Below, piece by piece: positions 21,704-29,995 of a DNA stretch of 64,000 nucleotides. Position numbers and translations under genes: made by a program. Origin of the DNA: Fistulifera solaris (Eukaryota; Bacillariophyta; Bacillariophyceae; Naviculales; Stauroneidaceae); NCBI GenBank assembly GCA_030295235.1, contig AP026138.1:186001-250000 (forward strand). The letters run 5' to 3'. The notes under the pieces were generated by a model. It worked only from the letters and a program-made list of their open reading frames with translations, was not told where the DNA came from and searched no databases. Position 1 is the stretch's first letter. Each line of letters starts with the position of its first letter.

Positions 21704-23980
21704 TTAAGCCAAGTAGTTGTAGCGATTTCGGTCCTTAGCATCTCTTTCCATATATTCTCGTTCAATCAACGACTCTATTCGACTCTTAACATCAGCGGCT
21801 TGGGCAGGAAACTTTACTTGTTCCATAACTTGAGGGATCAGCTGCTGATGCAGCACGGTCTTCCGCGCCTTGAGAATACGAACCAGGACGGCGTCAATTA
21901 AGTAAAGCCGATCACGAGAGACTGTTTCAACAGTTTTGTCGCGCTCTTCCTTAGTCTCTTTCATCATAATATTTTGGATGCGAATTCGACGCTGGTTCGA
22001 AACGAAGGCTGTTTGGATAAGAAATTCATCTTCGTCTTGAACTGTCATGCGCGGCTTCTTTTTTCCGTCGGGGTCCAGTTTTCGTAAGATGCGCGTGCCC
22101 TCCTTTCCCAAGGCGAGAGATTGTAAGATACGCTCCATTTCATCGCGATCTTCTAATCCGATTGCTTGCATAAGACCCGGCAGTGTCCACTTCGTTTCGG
22201 CGTCCGTAAATTGGATCAAAACAAGCGCTTGAAGCAAGCTGACATTCAGCTCATAGGGTTTCGAAAATCCGTTCGTTTTGACAAGACAGTTGCCTAGCGC
22301 GTATTGCCATGCGACGCGGCGGCCGTGGCATTTCTTTTTATAGAAGGCATCAAACGAATTTTGGCGCTCGAGTAGACTGGAGGGAAGCTGTAAATTCTGG
22401 TACTGGGGATACACAGGCCAGTACCCTGTAGTAAGAATCTGAACTTCCATTTCCACCCTGTTATCTTGCGAAGCATTTTGTTCCGCTGCCTGCTTGTAGA
22501 CCAACATATGCTCTCTGCTCAAATCAATATCTTGGAACATTCCTTCCATTTTGGAGGTATAGCCGGCGCCACATTCCGCCTTCAAAAATGAGCAAACTTG
22601 CTTCTCAATGTCCATGCTGACAACTTTGTTCCACAGCAATCGCTTTGCCAGATCACGCTTGTAAAAGGCTTCAAAGATGTCTTTGGCTTGCAGCGGAACG
22701 AATATTCCTGTGACGACGCTACTCAACCAATCGGCTGGCTGCACATCCAACTTCTTTGCGGACTTGAGGATTTGATCGAGATGTTTTGCCAATGGTTCGG
22801 CAAGAGACTCCTCACTATTAACAACTTCCTCCCAGACGCTCTTTAGTGAGATCACCTCTCCGGCTCCGGGTAATCTCGCAATCGTTTGCTTGACCATACT
22901 TTGCAGTGCCAACAGATCCGCAACAGATTGACTTCGTCGTAAACCTTCTTGTTTCACAAACGATGCTATCACTTGAGCCACCTTGGCGTGTCCTGAGGGT
23001 AATCGTCCACACAATAACCAGAGTTGTGTCAGTGGCACCGAGGTTGCTGATGTTACAAGTTCTTGCTGCAGGAAAGGTTGCCAGAAACGCTCTTGAGCCA
23101 GCAGTCCGTCTAAAATCAATGGCTGCGTGATGCAGGTATCCAGGACGTGACCAAGCCATTGCACGGGCAACCAAGGCCAAATGGGGATGACACTGAATTG
23201 TTGATGTGTCCAAGTAATGAACTGCGCGGCTGCTCCTTGACTATTGGAGGAGAAGGACTCCCAAACTTCCTTACTGGTCCGTTCCCAGTACTCGTGCAGA
23301 TCTGCTTCAATGGGAAGACTCGACAAAACTTGTAGATCTTGCCACATGTACCAGATGCTTTGTAGTACCGGTGTGCTGGTGGCGATCTTCCAATCTTGAT
23401 AAATCCAAACCTGAAACCATTCTTGATAGATAGTTTTCAAGTAAAACTGAAGCTGTTCCGCAAAGGCTGCAAGACCCGCCGTCCAAAGCGTTTGTGCGTG
23501 CGCCGAGACAGGGACGGCCGTTGTCCCGTTCCATCCGTGCGTTCGATCCAGAGGAAGTAACACGTGCTGACAGCACAACAAATATTCCGTATAAATCCGG
23601 TAAAGTTCCGGAATAATTTGCAGAAGAGGTCCCTGTCCTAGACCAGTGTGCGGTAACACAATGCGGACTGCTTGCTTCATGGATTGAATCCAGTCTTCGT
23701 AAAGACGGGGACCGTACTGGTGTCGCACCAAAGTCACCACCGACGTGTACGCATTTTGCAAGCTCAAGTCGGTCTGTTTTTCGGTTTTCTCTCCTCTATA
23801 TTCCGCCAGTTGTCGATTTAATATCTCTAGCGTCCCATCCAGTAATTCTTTCACGGTTTGTTCGTAATAATTGGCGGGCAAGGAAGGAGGCTTGGAGAAC
23901 GGACGAATGACTATCTTGCTCGTTTTTGCCTTGTTGCGGCTCGTTGCTGCGGCGTGCTGATGCATCAAATTGCGCGACAT
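21704..23980 (-). CDS. CUL4: Cullin-4-type scaffold of a CRL ubiquitin ligase
   Basis: This is the scaffold that links a RING E2-recruiting subunit to DDB1-type adaptors. The single exon encodes 758 aa from ATG 23980. The N-terminus KIVIRPFSKPPSLPANYYEQ resembles the CUL4 start (K-L-V-I-x-x-F ... P-x-L-P-x-N-Y). The cullin homology region includes FEAFYKRDLAKRLLWNKVVS and AECGAGYTSKMEGMFQDIDL. The winged-helix C-terminus has LYLIDAVLVRILKARKTV, with the neddylation lysine at about residue 704. The protein ends YNYLA. No frame break is present. The start codon is only 147 bp from the edge of the inserted MULE, so its promoter may be altered in this allele. Confidence 0.93.
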   Translation of the reverse strand: MSRNLMHQHAAATSRNKAKTSKIVIRPFSKPPSLPANYYEQTVKELLDGTLEILNRQLAEYRGEKTEKQTDLSLQNAYTSVVTLVRHQYGPRLYEDWIQSMKQAVRIVLPHTGLGQGPLLQIIPELYRIYTEYLLCCQHVLLPLDRTHGWNGTTAVPVSAHAQTLWTAGLAAFAEQLQFYLKTIYQEWFQVWIYQDWKIATSTPVLQSIWYMWQDLQVLSSLPIEADLHEYWERTSKEVWESFSSNSQGAAAQFITWTHQQFSVIPIWPWLPVQWLGHVLDTCITQPLILDGLLAQERFWQPFLQQELVTSATSVPLTQLWLLCGRLPSGHAKVAQVIASFVKQEGLRRSQSVADLLALQSMVKQTIARLPGAGEVISLKSVWEEVVNSEESLAEPLAKHLDQILKSAKKLDVQPADWLSSVVTGIFVPLQAKDIFEAFYKRDLAKRLLWNKVVSMDIEKQVCSFLKAECGAGYTSKMEGMFQDIDLSREHMLVYKQAAEQNASQDNRVEMEVQILTTGYWPVYPQYQNLQLPSSLLERQNSFDAFYKKKCHGRRVAWQYALGNCLVKTNGFSKPYELNVSLLQALVLIQFTDAETKWTLPGLMQAIGLEDRDEMERILQSLALGKEGTRILRKLDPDGKKKPRMTVQDEDEFLIQTAFVSNQRRIRIQNIMMKETKEERDKTVETVSRDRLYLIDAVLVRILKARKTVLHQQLIPQVMEQVKFPAQAADVKSRIESLIEREYMERDAKDRNRYNYLA

Positions 23981-24127
23981 GCTAGCGGTAAATTAAAACA
24001 GTAATGCAACGCTAGACGAGGGTTGAAACGGCGGTCAAAGCTAAGAATGATAACAAAGACATTGACCGGTTGCGTTGTACGGAGTAACAAGCTTGTCACG
24101 CGGTGTCGAAAACAAGAAAGGGGAGGA

Positions 24128-24257
24128 GGGAGACTTCCGTTAGGTCTCCAACCAGGGTGAACCTCTTCCGATAGCTCTCCCGTTAGGAGAGACGTTAACT
24201 GACTACATTCAACTTTACAGTAGAGTACGCGCCATTGGATGTGGTACTAATTACTTA
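24128..24257 (+). repeat. MULE left terminal inverted repeat (130 bp)
   Basis: It matches the right repeat exactly in reverse complement. It contains an internal short palindrome (CTCTCCCGTTAGGAGAG) that may be part of a transposase binding site. The 9-bp duplication AGGGGAGGA lies just outside, at 24119-24127. Confidence 0.97.
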
Positions 24258-24473
24258 AAGGCCTTCCATCCATCATTAGTTCTACTTAGGTCACGCACAA
24301 TAACCGCACAATCGTTCGCGTTGTGCGTTTGTTCCGTTCCGACTGCCGACAAGATGATCAGAACGCTGCATTCCTTATTGTCATAGTTGCCCTTCCGTTC
24401 CTACTGTTGCTCTTTTACAACATTAACATGTCGATCATTGAAGCGAAGGGCGGCGATCATTAAATCCGCGATT

Positions 24474-26915
24474 ATGCAAAAATATGGGGCACTTCCTCCA
24501 ACCGGTCCGTATGATTTTGAAAAGTTTCTCTATGACAAACCGATCCCTGAGGATGATCACGAGGAGCTTCTCCGCAGCATCGCTTTTGTGTACGATCGAA
24601 AGCTCTTACGAGATGTCAGCAAGCACGGAGAAAGCCCTTGCTACGTGTGCACTTGCTGCAAAACGTTCTCACTTAAGTTCAAGGAAGAAAACGGCGAACT
24701 TCGATTGCTACACGACCATCCTAGTACTAACTTCAGGCACAGTTTGTTTTGCACTCCAACAAAACGACCTCCCAAAGGACTGCCGCAGAAAATCAATGAT
24801 AGTGCAGAACATTCCTGCTGTTCAAGACTTCTTCAAAACATGCTTCCAGGCACCAAACTTCGACAGTCATGCTACTCGCAAGAATCTCAACGCCGTCCTC
24901 AGGAAAGAGGGTTTCGACATCGAAGTTGGCCCGACAATGCATTCAAATCTCAAGAAACACTTCCGTGAGGTCTACCGAAAGGATTTGTTGATGTACAATG
25001 AGCTGTTGGCCCAGTATCTTCGGAAATATGTCGAGCTAAATCCAAATGCCTCCGTCAATTTAGAAACTGACCAGAACTCATGCTTTTTTCGGTCAACTGT
25101 GTTCATTGAGAATGCCGCGCACTTCTTTAGAAATGCCTGCATTCCTGCAATCTTTTAGACGGAACACACATCCGTATACCCGAACACGATGGAATTGGAG
25201 TCCCGATCATAGGGGTCGATGGAAATGGAAGTAACATTCCACTTGGTTTTGGGTTGATTCCCTCGGAAAACAAGCAAGGGATGATATATATCCTTCTCAT
25301 GATGTATCAAGCTGGGTTCAATTTCGAAGAGTTTCCAGTATTCACTGACCGAGGACACATTCTCGCCGCTGTCCGGCGTTGGCAGAACATTATGGACTGG
25401 TTGTTTCCGTGAAGTATTGCTTGATTCATATTCTTGAAACATTTACCATCTATTCAATATCAATCAACGATCGCTGAGAGGGCAGAGCGGTCGCTTGGTT
25501 TATCATAGCGAGATGCAAAGCGCTCCAGATGTTAACGCCTTCTTGGATGCTGCGAAGAAGCTTGTCAAAGCGCTTCCACAAATTGAAGAAAACGAAACTC
25601 TTAGTACCGGTGCGAATTGTTATCTATGTTCTTGGGACAATTCATCCTACTCATTGGACTGTGTTTGGAAATACACCGAGTCAACATGAATCTATGTGGG
25701 AGCCCCTATATTTTACCTATCTAGCTGAAGTGAATGGCTTCACAGAGATAAGTGGAGACGTCGGCGAATGGAGGTGGTTGCTCAACGATCACGTGCCAGT
25801 TGGAAACAAGTTCCCTTTATATGGTTTCTGTTCAACAAATCATGTCGAATCGGCCCAGCAGTGGCTTCTACATCATGAAGTGAGGACTAATACCCCTCCA
25901 CTAGCCATTTCTAACTTTTTGATGGCGGCTGCCGAATCTCTTCGACAATTTCGAGATGAAATAACAACCAAATCTGCTAGGTTCCTCACCATATACTTTC
26001 GAAGCTTGCAAGATACAGGCAATGAAGATCTAGATTTTGTAATAGAGGATGCTGAAGGATGCCCGATGGCAGTTTGAAATTCAAATTATGCGGCTGAAAA
26101 GCACAAGAAGACGGAGTATGTTACTTATGAACCCACGAGCACTCCGTCCCTGTACTGCTCCTGCAGTAGAACAGCGATGCGGGAAATCTACTGCGGCCAC
26201 ATCAACCTTGTTTCACGTACAAGATCCTCAACTTGGCCCTCAATCCCACCCTCTGTGTTTTCGCAATTCTCACGAAGAGTTTGGAAAAGTTCCGACAAGT
26301 GGTGATCGTCGGCTTCCTTACAGAGTTTCTTAACAACTATCCGGCGACTTGGCGTCCCGGGATTTGGGGATATCAAGCTTGCTTATCAATCAGAAAACAT
26401 TTATCCATCACCAACTTACACTGACAAGCTTAACTCGGGGAACAGAATAATCAGTAATGGTGAACCCGGGACCACGTAAGTCAAAGAAAAAGAAGCAATC
26501 GGCGCTGGAATCAGCACGAATGACAAAGGAGTATGAGCCAAGTTCAAAGAACAAGCTCAGTCGAAATAACGATGCAATAGCAGAAGCGATTGCCGCCGAT
26601 GGTCTGTTTGATTTTGGGACCAAACCAAAGGCGGAACACATGCAACAGCTAGAATCAACTCTTGGACGTAAGCGTAGAGGCGGCAAGCCCTTACCTCGGC
26701 ACTGCTTTCACTGCAGATCACCGAATCACACAATTCGACAGTGTCTGGACTACCTCAAAGATGATCGAAGGTACATGGATCCTGCATTACTTGAAACTGG
26801 CGCAATTCTGGTCAACCATTTCCCAACATGCGTCATTGACATGGATGCAGGAATTACTTCTGAAGATTTGGACAACGATGATACCTCCGGGAGGACATGG
26901 CCTTCACAATATTGA
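24474..26915 (+). CDS. MULE transposase (frame-broken) with SWIM finger and CCHC knuckle
   Basis: ATG 24474 begins MQKYGALPPTGPYDFEKFLY. An N-terminal Cys/His cluster follows (CYVCTCCKTF ... HDHPSTNFRHSLFC). Catalytic-like motifs are DGTHIRIPEHDG (from 25158), FTDRGHILAAVRR (near 25355) and NHVESAQQWLLHHE (near 25840), giving a D-D-E set. A SWIM zinc finger CSCSRTAMREIYCGH lies at 26156-26200, typical of MuDR-type transposases. A basic segment (RKSKKKKQS) and a CCHC knuckle (CFHCRSPNHTIRQC, near 26702) follow. The frame changes several times (near 24780, 25156 in a TTTT, 25410, 25600, 26080 and 26460). I treat this as one transposase gene, broken either by real mutations or by base-calling errors. 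Confidence 0.85.
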
Positions 26916-28486
26916 CAAGATTGGCTTAGTAGAAGACTCTGATGCAGCCAATGCCATTGTCCAGTCACGGATTTTAAAGCTTACTGGAGAAGACGCTGCA
27001 GAAATTCACGCTGAAGACGACAACGAAAATAACTATCTTCTGGATATGGACCTTGCTCCGTCAGGTAGTAACCGAGATATTGTAGTAATTATTCGTGACA
27101 AGGATTACACGGAAAGAAGAAGTCACGAACAAGAATTGACCATGGTTGATGATGTCGAGGTAGGCATCCATGACGATTCCCGTCTGAACAGTGCACACTC
27201 GGGTCATCTGTCGACAATTCTAGAGGATGAAGATGTGGAACCAAGCACCGCACATAATGCTTTTGCCTCAAGTCCCGCAACAACAGAATATTCAGTAAAT
27301 GAAATGCCAACAACTAGAACAAAGAGGAGATCCAAACAAGTAAACGAATTTAAAAGCATGAAGGCAAGTCCATCTACCGCCAAAGTCATCGATATTGAAG
27401 ACAGCGACCGCATCCAGACCGAATTTGAAACCACCGCCGACCACAACAGCTTGTGCTTCCAGTCCAGCAACAACAGATTTTTCATTAGTCAAAATGGCAA
27501 CGAGAAAGAGGAAACGGCCGAAACAGCCACCAAATCAAAAAGCTGAAGGAACAAGTCCCGCCACAACTGATTCGTCAATCTTTGAGAGGCCGACCATGAA
27601 GAGTCAAAATCTGAAGCCACCACCTGATATCAGAGCTCATGCCTTGACTATCGAGTCTTCAATGAATGAGAATACAACACAAAAAAGGAAAAGATCGAAA
27701 CTGACAGCAAATTCCAGAGCCAAAGGCCCGACTCATGCCCGTAAAAAGAAGTTGAAACCGCCACCGATTGCAGAAGCAAAAGCAGGAAGTCCCGCCACAG
27801 CAGTTTCTTCCATAGTTGAGATGCCAACTATGAAGAGGGGTAATCTGAGAGCACTGCCAAGATCTCATTCGAAACAGTCCAACAACCGAAGTATCACGAT
27901 TCCTGAAGATATGATTATAAAGATACCGAAGACAGAACCCACTAATGCAAGTCCCGCCACGTCTGCTAGTGACGATTCATCACATGTATTTAAAAGGCGA
28001 TTAGACATCCAAAAGAAGAATGCAAGTCCCGCCAAATCCGGTAATCTCAGTGACGATTCGTCGCATTTCCTGAAAATGCCGCTAGATCTGCGAAGAAAGA
28101 ACTTGGCACAAAATGAAGCTCTCAAGTTCATTTTCAGTGGGTATTCCGAAAACCAGAAGAACTTCGTGAGAGCTATAACAAGTCCCGCTACTGCCACTAG
28201 TGGGACCTCATCACAATTCTTGAGAACACCCTTCGACCTGAGACGTAAGATTGTAGATCCCAGAAATGAAAATCAATTTTCATTACGTCGACAACAAGTA
28301 AGGCAAATTGGAGTAGCCCCTTTGCAACCCCCAGTCATTACTGATGAACCATCAAAGATCGTATCCTATTTTTACGACACAGCTTATCCATTTGTGGGAA
28401 CCATTGAGCAATTAAATTGTTTGGTTCAAGAACACGAGTTTGATATTCCAGAATCATTTCACGGAAAGCGGAAACAAATGATTTAA
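26916..28486 (+). CDS. MULE internal region with tandem 'SPAT' modules
   Basis: An acidic segment (EDSDAANAIVQS, EIHAEDDNENNYLLDMD) leads into a Lys/Pro/Ser-rich region with repeated modules. Each has S-P-A-T/K-(T/S) followed by S-S, then a short motif of the type (E)xPTMK and RNLKPPP. I count at least six copies between 27270 and 28215. At the DNA level they share the word AAGTCCCGC. Stretches like RKRKRPKQPP could be nuclear localisation signals. The frame shifts near 26890 and 27410. No known domain is visible. It may be a linker between transposase and Ulp1 domain in one long protein, or a separate ORF. Confidence 0.55.
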
Positions 28487-28819
28487 CGATGAAAAGAAGG
28501 GCTTCAACCCAGCAAGGGCGCAAACCAGCGAGGACTTGTGAGTGAGAACAATATTGCAATCCACGTGCGCGGAATACTCTTGCAGAGACAGCAAAAGGAA
28601 AGAAGTGGAATAGAATCATTTATCACTGTAGGGACAAGAAAGAATGGAAACGATCTGATTTACAACAAAGAAGATGCCAGGGGATCTCTTCGGTCACTCC
28701 TTTTTGCAATCCAGTGCAAAGGGCGTTGATAAAGGTCGCGGAGTCGTCCACGACCTGAAGAGGGAAAGAAGCATCATATCAAGGTGCTAAGTGGTGCCAC
28801 GGCATCCATAACCAGTGAA

Positions 28820-29491
28820 TGCCTTGAAATTATGAACTCGCAATGTTATTTCAATGACGGCGATTGTGAACAGTTTCCTTGAAAGCATAACAAGCAAGAC
28901 CGTAACGGATGAGGGAGTTATTGCACACCCGTCGTATGTCATGAGTAATCTGTGGGATTCCGCCAACCAAAATATTAAGAGAGAGGGTAGACTGCAGCTT
29001 AGTTCAGCGTTTGTGGCATTGAATTCTATGACAAAATCGAACAATTTGGGCATTCATTTATTCCCTATGTGCAAGGAGAGGCACTGGTGGTTGATGGTGG
29101 TTGATGCCGATAATCGAGTTATTTATTCGCTCGACTCCCTCGAAGATCCGGACGATCACTACTCTAATGCTGTCTGGCTTTCAGGTTTATTTAAATTGCG
29201 TGCGGTGAGGCAGCAATTAGAATCTTAGCGTCAACAAGCGAGCAGCAGGAATCAACATTACCCGATTTAGCTCCGTGGGAATACCAAGAAATGCGTCTTC
29301 CCAATAAACTATTGCAACATGATGGCCATAGTTGCGGACCATATGTATGTTTTTATGCGGCGACAATTCTGAAACATGGTCGACGTGCCCTCAATGAGAG
29401 GACATGGTTCCTTGACTCTATTTCGGAGATTGGAGTCGGAGATGATCTCCGACCTTTTGTATTTGATGTTATGTTTCAATTGGCTGAATGA
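28820..29491 (+). CDS. Ulp1/C48-type cysteine protease encoded in the MULE
   Basis: The motifs fit the SUMO-protease-like C48 fold: an FND..AIVNSFLES start (near 28848), RHWWLMVVDADN with the catalytic His at 29082-29084, YSLDSLEDP with the Asp at 29133-29135, and LLQHDGHSCGPYVC with the oxyanion Gln at 29315-29317 and the Cys at 29333-29335. The frame shifts near 28856 and between about 29186 and 29260. Ulp1-like genes captured by MULEs are known from plants. Whether this one cleaves SUMO, NEDD8-like or other substrates cannot be told. The stretch 28487-28819 upstream is probably coding but too broken to read with confidence. Confidence 0.8.
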
Positions 29492-29589
29492 CACGTATAG
29501 AGTAATGTGTGATATTAATCAACCAAGTCTAGTTTGAAACTGAAATTGTGTAGATTGGGTTTTGATTATTTACACGAAGTAGTTTTCGA

Positions 29590-29760
29590 CGAAAGCCTTG
29601 ATCGGTGGAAGGTCACGTAGGCTGGGTTTTTCTTTATTGGAAGGTCGCGCTCGCTGCATCAGGGTCACGTAGGCTGGTTTTTCTTTATTGACAATTGAGA
29701 GCGGTCGCGCTCGCTGACTTTTCTTTATCAAGAGCGGTCGCGCTCGCTGACTATTGTTTA
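29590..29760. repeat. Subterminal short tandem repeats of the MULE
   Basis: Two motifs alternate: GGTCACGTAGGCTGG-TTTTTCTTTATTG (two copies) and GGTCGCGCTCGCTG (three copies, two extended to GAGCGGTCGCGCTCGCTGACT). They sit about 100 to 260 bp inside the right terminal repeat. Clustered subterminal repeats in other transposons serve as transposase binding sites; that role is only an inference here. Confidence 0.7.
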
Positions 29761-29856
29761 TTGAGGATTTGGTTATCTTAGAGGGGTGATTCATGAATCA
29801 TCCGGGACTGTCATTCATAAGGCTTTGTTACTTTATCGAGCAACCTAAGTAGATTC

Positions 29857-29986
29857 TAAGTAATTAGTACCACATCCAATGGCGCGTACTCTACTGTAAA
29901 GTTGAATGTAGTCAGTTAACGTCTCTCCTAACGGGAGAGCTATCGGAAGAGGTTCACCCTGGTTGGAGACCTAACGGAAGTCTCCC
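29857..29986 (-). repeat. MULE right terminal inverted repeat (130 bp)
   Basis: It is the exact reverse complement of the left repeat. The right copy of the 9-bp target duplication, AGGGGAGGA, follows at 29987-29995. Confidence 0.97.
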
Positions 29987-29995
29987 AGGGGAGGA

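Follow-up and report, generated by a model that had tools for sequence, protein, structure and literature searches.

Introduction

Two described groups of Mutator-like elements (MULEs) stand closest to the family reported here. The MULE-Diatoms, group 37 of Dupeyron et al. (2019), are described from a stramenopile host, with terminal inverted repeats (TIRs) of 123-124 bp and a SWIM finger; they are tabulated with one open reading frame (ORF) and with the target-site duplication (TSD) as none or not indicated (PMC6446971). The other group carries an Ulp1 protease domain: Arabidopsis has the Kaonashi (KIU) elements, and comparable elements are known from grapevine, melon and rice. Those of Arabidopsis are classed as non-TIR (VANDAL) elements (PMC13317346; PMC2528002). 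A review gives the precise function of this plant domain as unknown and states that elements carrying it can lower the methylation of their kin (PMC13317346). The present study concerns a MULE with long TIRs and an Ulp1/C48-like gene behind its transposase. One copy lies in a 64,000-nucleotide stretch of contig AP026138.1 (positions 186,001 to 250,000), referred to here as the window.

We consider that this element belongs to a MULE family that spread recently, with a probability of about 0.83. The searches covered the window's own genome (51.7 Mb in 61 contigs). Loci and contigs are cited below by handles beginning with L and C, respectively.

The element and its copies

By its TIRs, its TSD and its transposase motifs, the window element is a Mutator-like element. 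An initial annotation had claimed perfect 130-bp ends and a 9-bp target duplication, and both claims hold: the two arms are exact reverse complements over 130 of 130 bp, and AGGGGAGGA is read directly on either side (Table 1). Exact long TIRs and a duplication within the 8-11-bp range of the class are traits of the MULE superfamily. The ends are not due to chance, because the identical 130 bp recurs at 47 of the 48 ends of 24 copies.

These copies came from the genome search that the initial annotation had proposed. The 130-bp probe yielded 48 candidates, and the best 40 of the 48 were scored, all at 100%. Internal probes recognized 21 long and three short copies, 24 with the window copy included, spread over 17 contigs. 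Once all 24 had been fetched, only the right end of L033, the copy on C16, was not found. The 20 two-ended long copies measure 5846-5873 bp and the three short ones 3197-3210 bp.

A 9-10-bp repeat flanks 22 of the 23 two-ended copies. It is an exact 9-bp duplication at the edge of the element in 17; in five others, judged by eye and script, it is imperfect, with a length of 10 bp in L023 and off by one base in L022, L029, L030 and L034. L012 is the sole two-ended copy at which no target duplication was seen, and it is also a copy that lies beside a tandem array. Such arrays, with a unit slightly above 200 bp and found on many contigs, form the right flank of L012 (C18:853967-854302) and the left flank of L029 (C1:95977-96294). 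The right side of L033 (C16, from about 898500) is a disturbed mix of element-like and flank-like sequence, due either to truncation or to an assembly fault. The idea that it is a piece of an older related element was dropped after comparison with C15, which showed flank homology together with a disturbed stretch.

The three short copies share one deletion with identical breakpoints. A single deleted form has thus reached all three sites, and as the deletion removes the transposase, it was probably moved in trans.

Table 1. Features of the window element, in window coordinates.
Feature	Position	Strand	Basis or comparison
Left target-site duplication, AGGGGAGGA	24119..24127		Equals right flank; C24 counterpart has a single uninterrupted, similar site
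Left terminal inverted repeat, 130 bp	24128..24257	+	100% complementary to right end; recurs at 47 of the 48 ends (24 copies)
N-terminal part of transposase (MQKYG... to ...CIPAIF)	24474..25155	+	Split frames in window copy, one open frame in L031; tblastn L046 29-53%, L047 28-35%
Segment absent from three short copies (L020, L029, L032)	24535..27190		Identical breakpoints
Catalytic block, first two D (LDGTH 25155-25169, FTDRG 25341-25355)	25131..25409	+	tblastn 39% to L046, 50% to L047
CxxH motif YCLIH	25415..25429	+	YCLEH / YCVEH in relatives
Block with third catalytic residue (NHVES, 25838-25852)	25529..26077	+	49-54% to L046, 43% to L047
SWIM-type zinc finger pattern YCSCSR...YCGH	26153..26200	+	Seen in 15 of the 23 copies as read
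CCHC zinc knuckle pattern CFHCRSPNHTIRQC	26703..26744	+	Within ORF 26457-26915; pattern in 19 of 23 copies
Stretch with seven SPAT/SPAK peptide repeats, between zinc knuckle and protease	27271..28486	+	Peptide pattern
Ulp1/C48-like protease, first half with His (ERHWW 29076-29090) and Asp (SLDSLED 29127-29147)	28854..29228	+	Pfam Peptidase_C48; relatives
Ulp1/C48-like protease, second half with Q/Cys block LLQHDGHSCGPYVC	29291..29491	+	36% to L047 (E 3.5e-13), 30% to L046 (E 5.6e-6)
Short direct repeats near right end	29606..29761	+	Repeat families D4, D5, D7
Right terminal inverted repeat, 130 bp	29857..29986	-	Complementarity to left end; copy comparison
Right target-site duplication, AGGGGAGGA	29987..29995		Equals left flank

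Uninterrupted counterpart sites and the host genome

Contig C24 carries another version of the window copy's flank (92% identity), in which the two sides join without the element. When the joined flanks of 22 other copies were searched, with the best 40 candidates scored for each, ten more such sites were recognized, bringing those with an uninterrupted counterpart on another contig to 11 of the 24. These ten belong to L015 (counterpart on C14), L018 (C11), L020 and L021 (C7), L022 and L023 (C8), L024 (C6), L025 (C3), L030 (C34) and L031 (C27). Identity is 72-96% by piece, and the matches run through the junction or lie close on either side of it. The weaker cases are L020 and L022, each matched in two pieces, and L024, matched by one piece that passes the junction by about 27 bases and by a second piece. 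The outcome for L033, with its disturbed right side, was ambiguous. L016 is nested in another repeat that is uninterrupted at seven places with 99-100% identity. These counterpart sites represent insertion after the divergence of two versions and not strain differences. The 2-kb repeat that hosts L016 (L042:241-2269) occurs at no fewer than seven places, has open frames of 330 and 347 aa in the copy translated and looks like a Tc1/mariner-type transposase element.

The recent movement suggested by the initial annotation is borne out by the 24 copies, their near-identical ends, the target duplications and the uninterrupted sites. A different account of the same data would be that the copies are old and have been kept alike by gene conversion, as the identity of 47 of 48 ends might allow. 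This is extremely improbable, given copies dispersed over so many contigs, a target duplication in nearly all of them (22 of 23) and one copy, L016, lying inside a repeat that matches an uninterrupted copy at 99.8% over its left 1014 bp.

The genome holds 23 matches to the silicon-transporter family PF03842 (best E 3.5e-222), which support the diatom host that the initial annotation had named. Paired contigs, C23 and C24 for example, suggest two sets of parental chromosomes, as described for Fistulifera solaris (PMC5935921; PMC13276009). C7 and C8, an apparent contig pair, both carry copies, and both parental sets have therefore probably been entered by the element. A young burst together with two apparent parental sets offers ready-made insertion sites at which current cut-and-paste movement in a diatom could be tested.

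The window copy itself is upstream of a cullin gene on the minus strand (ORF 21704-23980), 147 bp from its start codon. Rfam gave no match in the window at gathering thresholds, PHROGs none for two pieces of the element, and no relative turned up when viral contigs were scanned with the catalytic piece.

The transposase

The D-D-E motifs reported by the initial annotation, and patterns for its SWIM finger and CCHC knuckle, are present, though scattered across several frames. The combination of DDE residues with a CxxH motif that marks MULE transposases was found as well: each of the four motifs occurs in 20 of 23 copies, the remaining three being the short ones without this segment, and their order was read in the window copy. 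The coding parts (N-terminal, catalytic, knuckle with SPAT repeats, and Ulp1-like) were read from frames of different copies and all lie on the plus strand.

Two pieces of the window copy match a related element in the same genome, L046, at 38% and 34% identity (E 2.5e-15 and 6.9e-15). L046 in turn scores 25.3 bits against the Pfam MULE family PF10551 when read alone and 27.8 bits with its frame neighbours (cut-off 27.6). For the SWIM finger, the pattern-bearing piece of copy L018 gave no Pfam SWIM match.

In the mechanism that we propose for the family, the DDE transposase, with its SWIM finger and CCHC knuckle, would bind the 130-bp ends, cut the element out and insert it with a 9-bp stagger, and would act in trans on the short form.

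The Ulp1/C48-like gene and related families

Behind the transposase lies an Ulp1/C48-like block (28854-29491) that the initial annotation, correct about the transposase motifs, had overlooked. Its second half scored 11.9 bits against Pfam C48 (E 0.19), and the single match in a PDB search was 6dg4, an Ulp1-like SUMO protease (E 0.31). A genome search with the first half retrieved all 24 copies and three other places, namely L046, L047 and C18:126636.

L046 (C2:963000-971500) and L047 (C46:571500-578000) represent further MULE families in which a transposase is followed by an Ulp1-like block in the same direction. They resemble the window family in their protein blocks (28-54% identity) and in their long TIRs, which are exact over 243 bp in the first and over 120 bp, with another 98 bp at 99%, in the second. 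They differ from it in being about 4.3-4.4 kb long. No 9-bp target duplication was found at their ends, and the SPAT-repeat stretch had no match in them (best E 0.61). The first protease half is 33% identical to L046 and 36-43% to L047 by tblastn. The His-Trp-Trp (HWW), S[IL]DS and Q..[NS]CG blocks are present in all three families.

It may be asked whether the gene is simply a captured host fragment that rides along without any role. MULEs often capture host genes (PMC6446971; PMC13317346), and L046 as read has a stop within its second protease half. Passive capture is nevertheless unlikely, since the gene holds the same place and orientation in three families that are only 33-43% alike in its first half and 30-36% in its second, each with the three conserved blocks. 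Because it has been retained across three such divergent families, the protease, as judged from its sequence, likely serves the element. The second gene would then encode a SUMO-protease-like enzyme that aids the element; the likeliest ways are that it counters host silencing or that it acts on the transposase or on chromatin. With the gene beside the transposase in three divergent families, the part that SUMO plays in controlling transposons could be tested beyond plants and animals.

Two further loci, L048:792-3488 (C38) and L049:757-3006 (C39), contain long open frames of 899 and 750 aa, apparently homeologous, with 24-25% identity to the L046 transposase. By eye, the second D and the CxxH motif are gone, and a SWIM finger above the Pfam cut-off remains. 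Nonsynonymous divergence (dN) between the two is 0.035 and synonymous divergence (dS) 0.233 over 722 codons. The pair looks like a transposase that has been domesticated, has lost its catalytic activity and is under selection.

Differences between copies and their source

Between pairs of the 20 long copies, substitutions amount to 0.14-0.74%, and there are many gaps as well, most of them one to three bases long. A CpG is no more than 3 bases away at 91 of the 108 variable spots; another 15 are at homopolymers and two at neither. In the window copy, 33% of all bases are this close to a CpG. Only one of the 20 CpGs in the outer 200 bp is variable, compared with 128 of 258 further in (Fisher p 7.6e-5). 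The first variant appears about 200 bp from the left end and the last about 245 bp from the right end, so the clean zone exceeds the 130-bp repeat. The variants are also nearly unlinked. The four-gamete test was failed by 1057 of 1176 pairs of informative spots, and mean r2 was 0.063-0.086 by distance class, with 0.086 for pairs less than 100 bp apart, where 0.053 is expected. A permutation test showed no influence of assembly strand on the variants (p 0.84). A probable exception to the general pattern is position 25436, where four of the 20 copies, including the window copy, have G; this variant looks inherited.

Nanopore consensus errors are known to cluster at methylated motifs and homopolymers, the motifs being bacterial Dcm sites in that study (PMC6591954). 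We infer that the differences between copies are long-read consensus errors of this type, at methylated CpGs and homopolymers, and that the real copies are nearly identical. This supposes that such long reads were used for the assembly and that these CpGs are methylated. Short reads would correct the consensus only where they reach unique flank, which would leave the ends clean.

The differences could also be real mutations, if the host mutates repeated methylated DNA at CpGs by small indels and spares the ends. In its favour, the variation lies in the interior of the element and mostly in CpG context, and another repeat has the pattern just weakly. That explanation is very improbable, as the states are almost unlinked even over less than 100 bp, homopolymers are affected too, nanopore errors favour these same contexts, and the clean zone extends past the TIR as expected if flank-anchored reads had corrected it.

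A second repeat, of which three copies were compared, served as a control. It has 17 variable places (13 substitutions and four gaps), 11 of which, including all four gaps, abut a CpG, compared with 42% of its bases; it shows the error pattern in weak form at most. Since this repeat leans towards CpG too, the control is blurred and confidence in our reading is slightly lowered.

Age of the burst

Because the differences look like consensus errors, the true copies would be near-identical and the burst young. Dating from the raw differences was dropped, these being nearly unlinked and in error-prone contexts. Among the 5856 columns, 3203 lie away from CpGs and homopolymers; seven of these vary, four by substitution, giving a diversity of 3.6e-4 per site. 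The value falls to about 1.0e-4 if 25436 alone is counted, as the other three are adjacent columns that resemble one shift. With the rate of 4.77e-10 per site per generation given for Phaeodactylum (PMC6604790), the burst would be roughly 1e5 to 4e5 generations old, an order of magnitude only, as the rate comes from another species and residual errors would inflate the estimate.

Evidence against a recently spread family and its coding state

A number of results weigh against the interpretation given above. The variance of pairwise differences was 29.6, whereas shuffles gave 16.3 and none of 500 came as high, which leaves some structure among the variants, due to ancestry or to error that is unequal between copies. 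In the second repeat 13 of the 17 variable places are substitutions, and the one translated copy has two long open frames, so that not every repeat resembles the window family. The consensus-error view is itself drawn from the assembled sequences. In the joined-flank search, with the best 40 candidates for each, no match across the junction was obtained for 11 copies (L011, L012, L013, L017, L019, L026, L027, L028, L029, L032 and L034). Three domain assignments fall below their Pfam cut-offs: the catalytic block against PF10551 (17.7 bits, cut-off 27.6), the knuckle against zf-CCHC (12.8 bits, cut-off 20.8) and the first protease half against Peptidase_C48 (18.6 bits, E 0.0018, cut-off 20.7). 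Finally, no intact transposase frame and no open frame above 420 aa was found in the 23 copies examined. What the initial annotation called a complete and perhaps active Mutator-like transposon is Mutator-like; that any copy is intact or active now is no more than possible.

The last result bears on the possibility that the family is defective and is moved by a helper not seen here. In the window copy the frame changes near 25150, between the N-terminal and catalytic parts, and near 25408, after FTDRG, and the stretches at both places are identical in 20 of 20 aligned copies. If these two common changes are real, all copies would be defective and a helper elsewhere, or missing from the assembly, would move them; the three deleted copies suggest that movement in trans does occur. 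We regard this as possible and on balance somewhat unlikely. In L046 and L047 a single frame spans the two places, though each has its own frame changes elsewhere; each place falls at a T run or a CpG, where the other differences cluster too; and the assembly searches showed no further close member that could act as helper. Most of the frame breaks look like consensus errors, and the two common ones would be either systematic errors or real defects. Since frame breaks may be such errors, coding capacity cannot be judged in this assembly, and apparent differences and frame breaks in its young repeats should be treated with caution.

Comparison with known systems

The window family resembles the MULE-Diatoms, as described, in its stramenopile host, its TIR length (130 bp compared with 123-124 bp) and its SWIM-type pattern. 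It differs from that description in its 9-bp TSD, its CCHC pattern and the added Ulp1-like gene; the single ORF and the TSD entry (none or not indicated) tabulated for that group do not fit it. Owing to the Ulp1-like block and the TSD, it has not been filed under MULE-Diatoms.

With Kaonashi the family would share the basic design of a Mutator-like element with an Ulp1 protease domain; the Ulp1/C48-like block scores 18.6 bits here against a cut-off of 20.7, and its motifs are kept in two relatives at 30-43% identity. Unlike the Arabidopsis elements it has long exact TIRs and a diatom host. The 130-bp TIRs do not agree with the non-TIR, VANDAL-type structure, and for this reason the family is not a Kaonashi member but at most an instance of the same idea. 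A literature search, with most subscription journals outside its reach, found no Ulp1-carrying MULE in diatoms.

MULEs with Ulp1 are already known in plants. It is tempting to suggest that a separate, diatom lineage of TIR Mutator elements encodes a working SUMO protease, acquired independently of that of plant Kaonashi and helping them to escape or reverse host silencing, and that the burst of this family followed the meeting of two parental genomes in a hybrid (allodiploid) diatom; we offer this tentatively and consider it rather doubtful as a whole.

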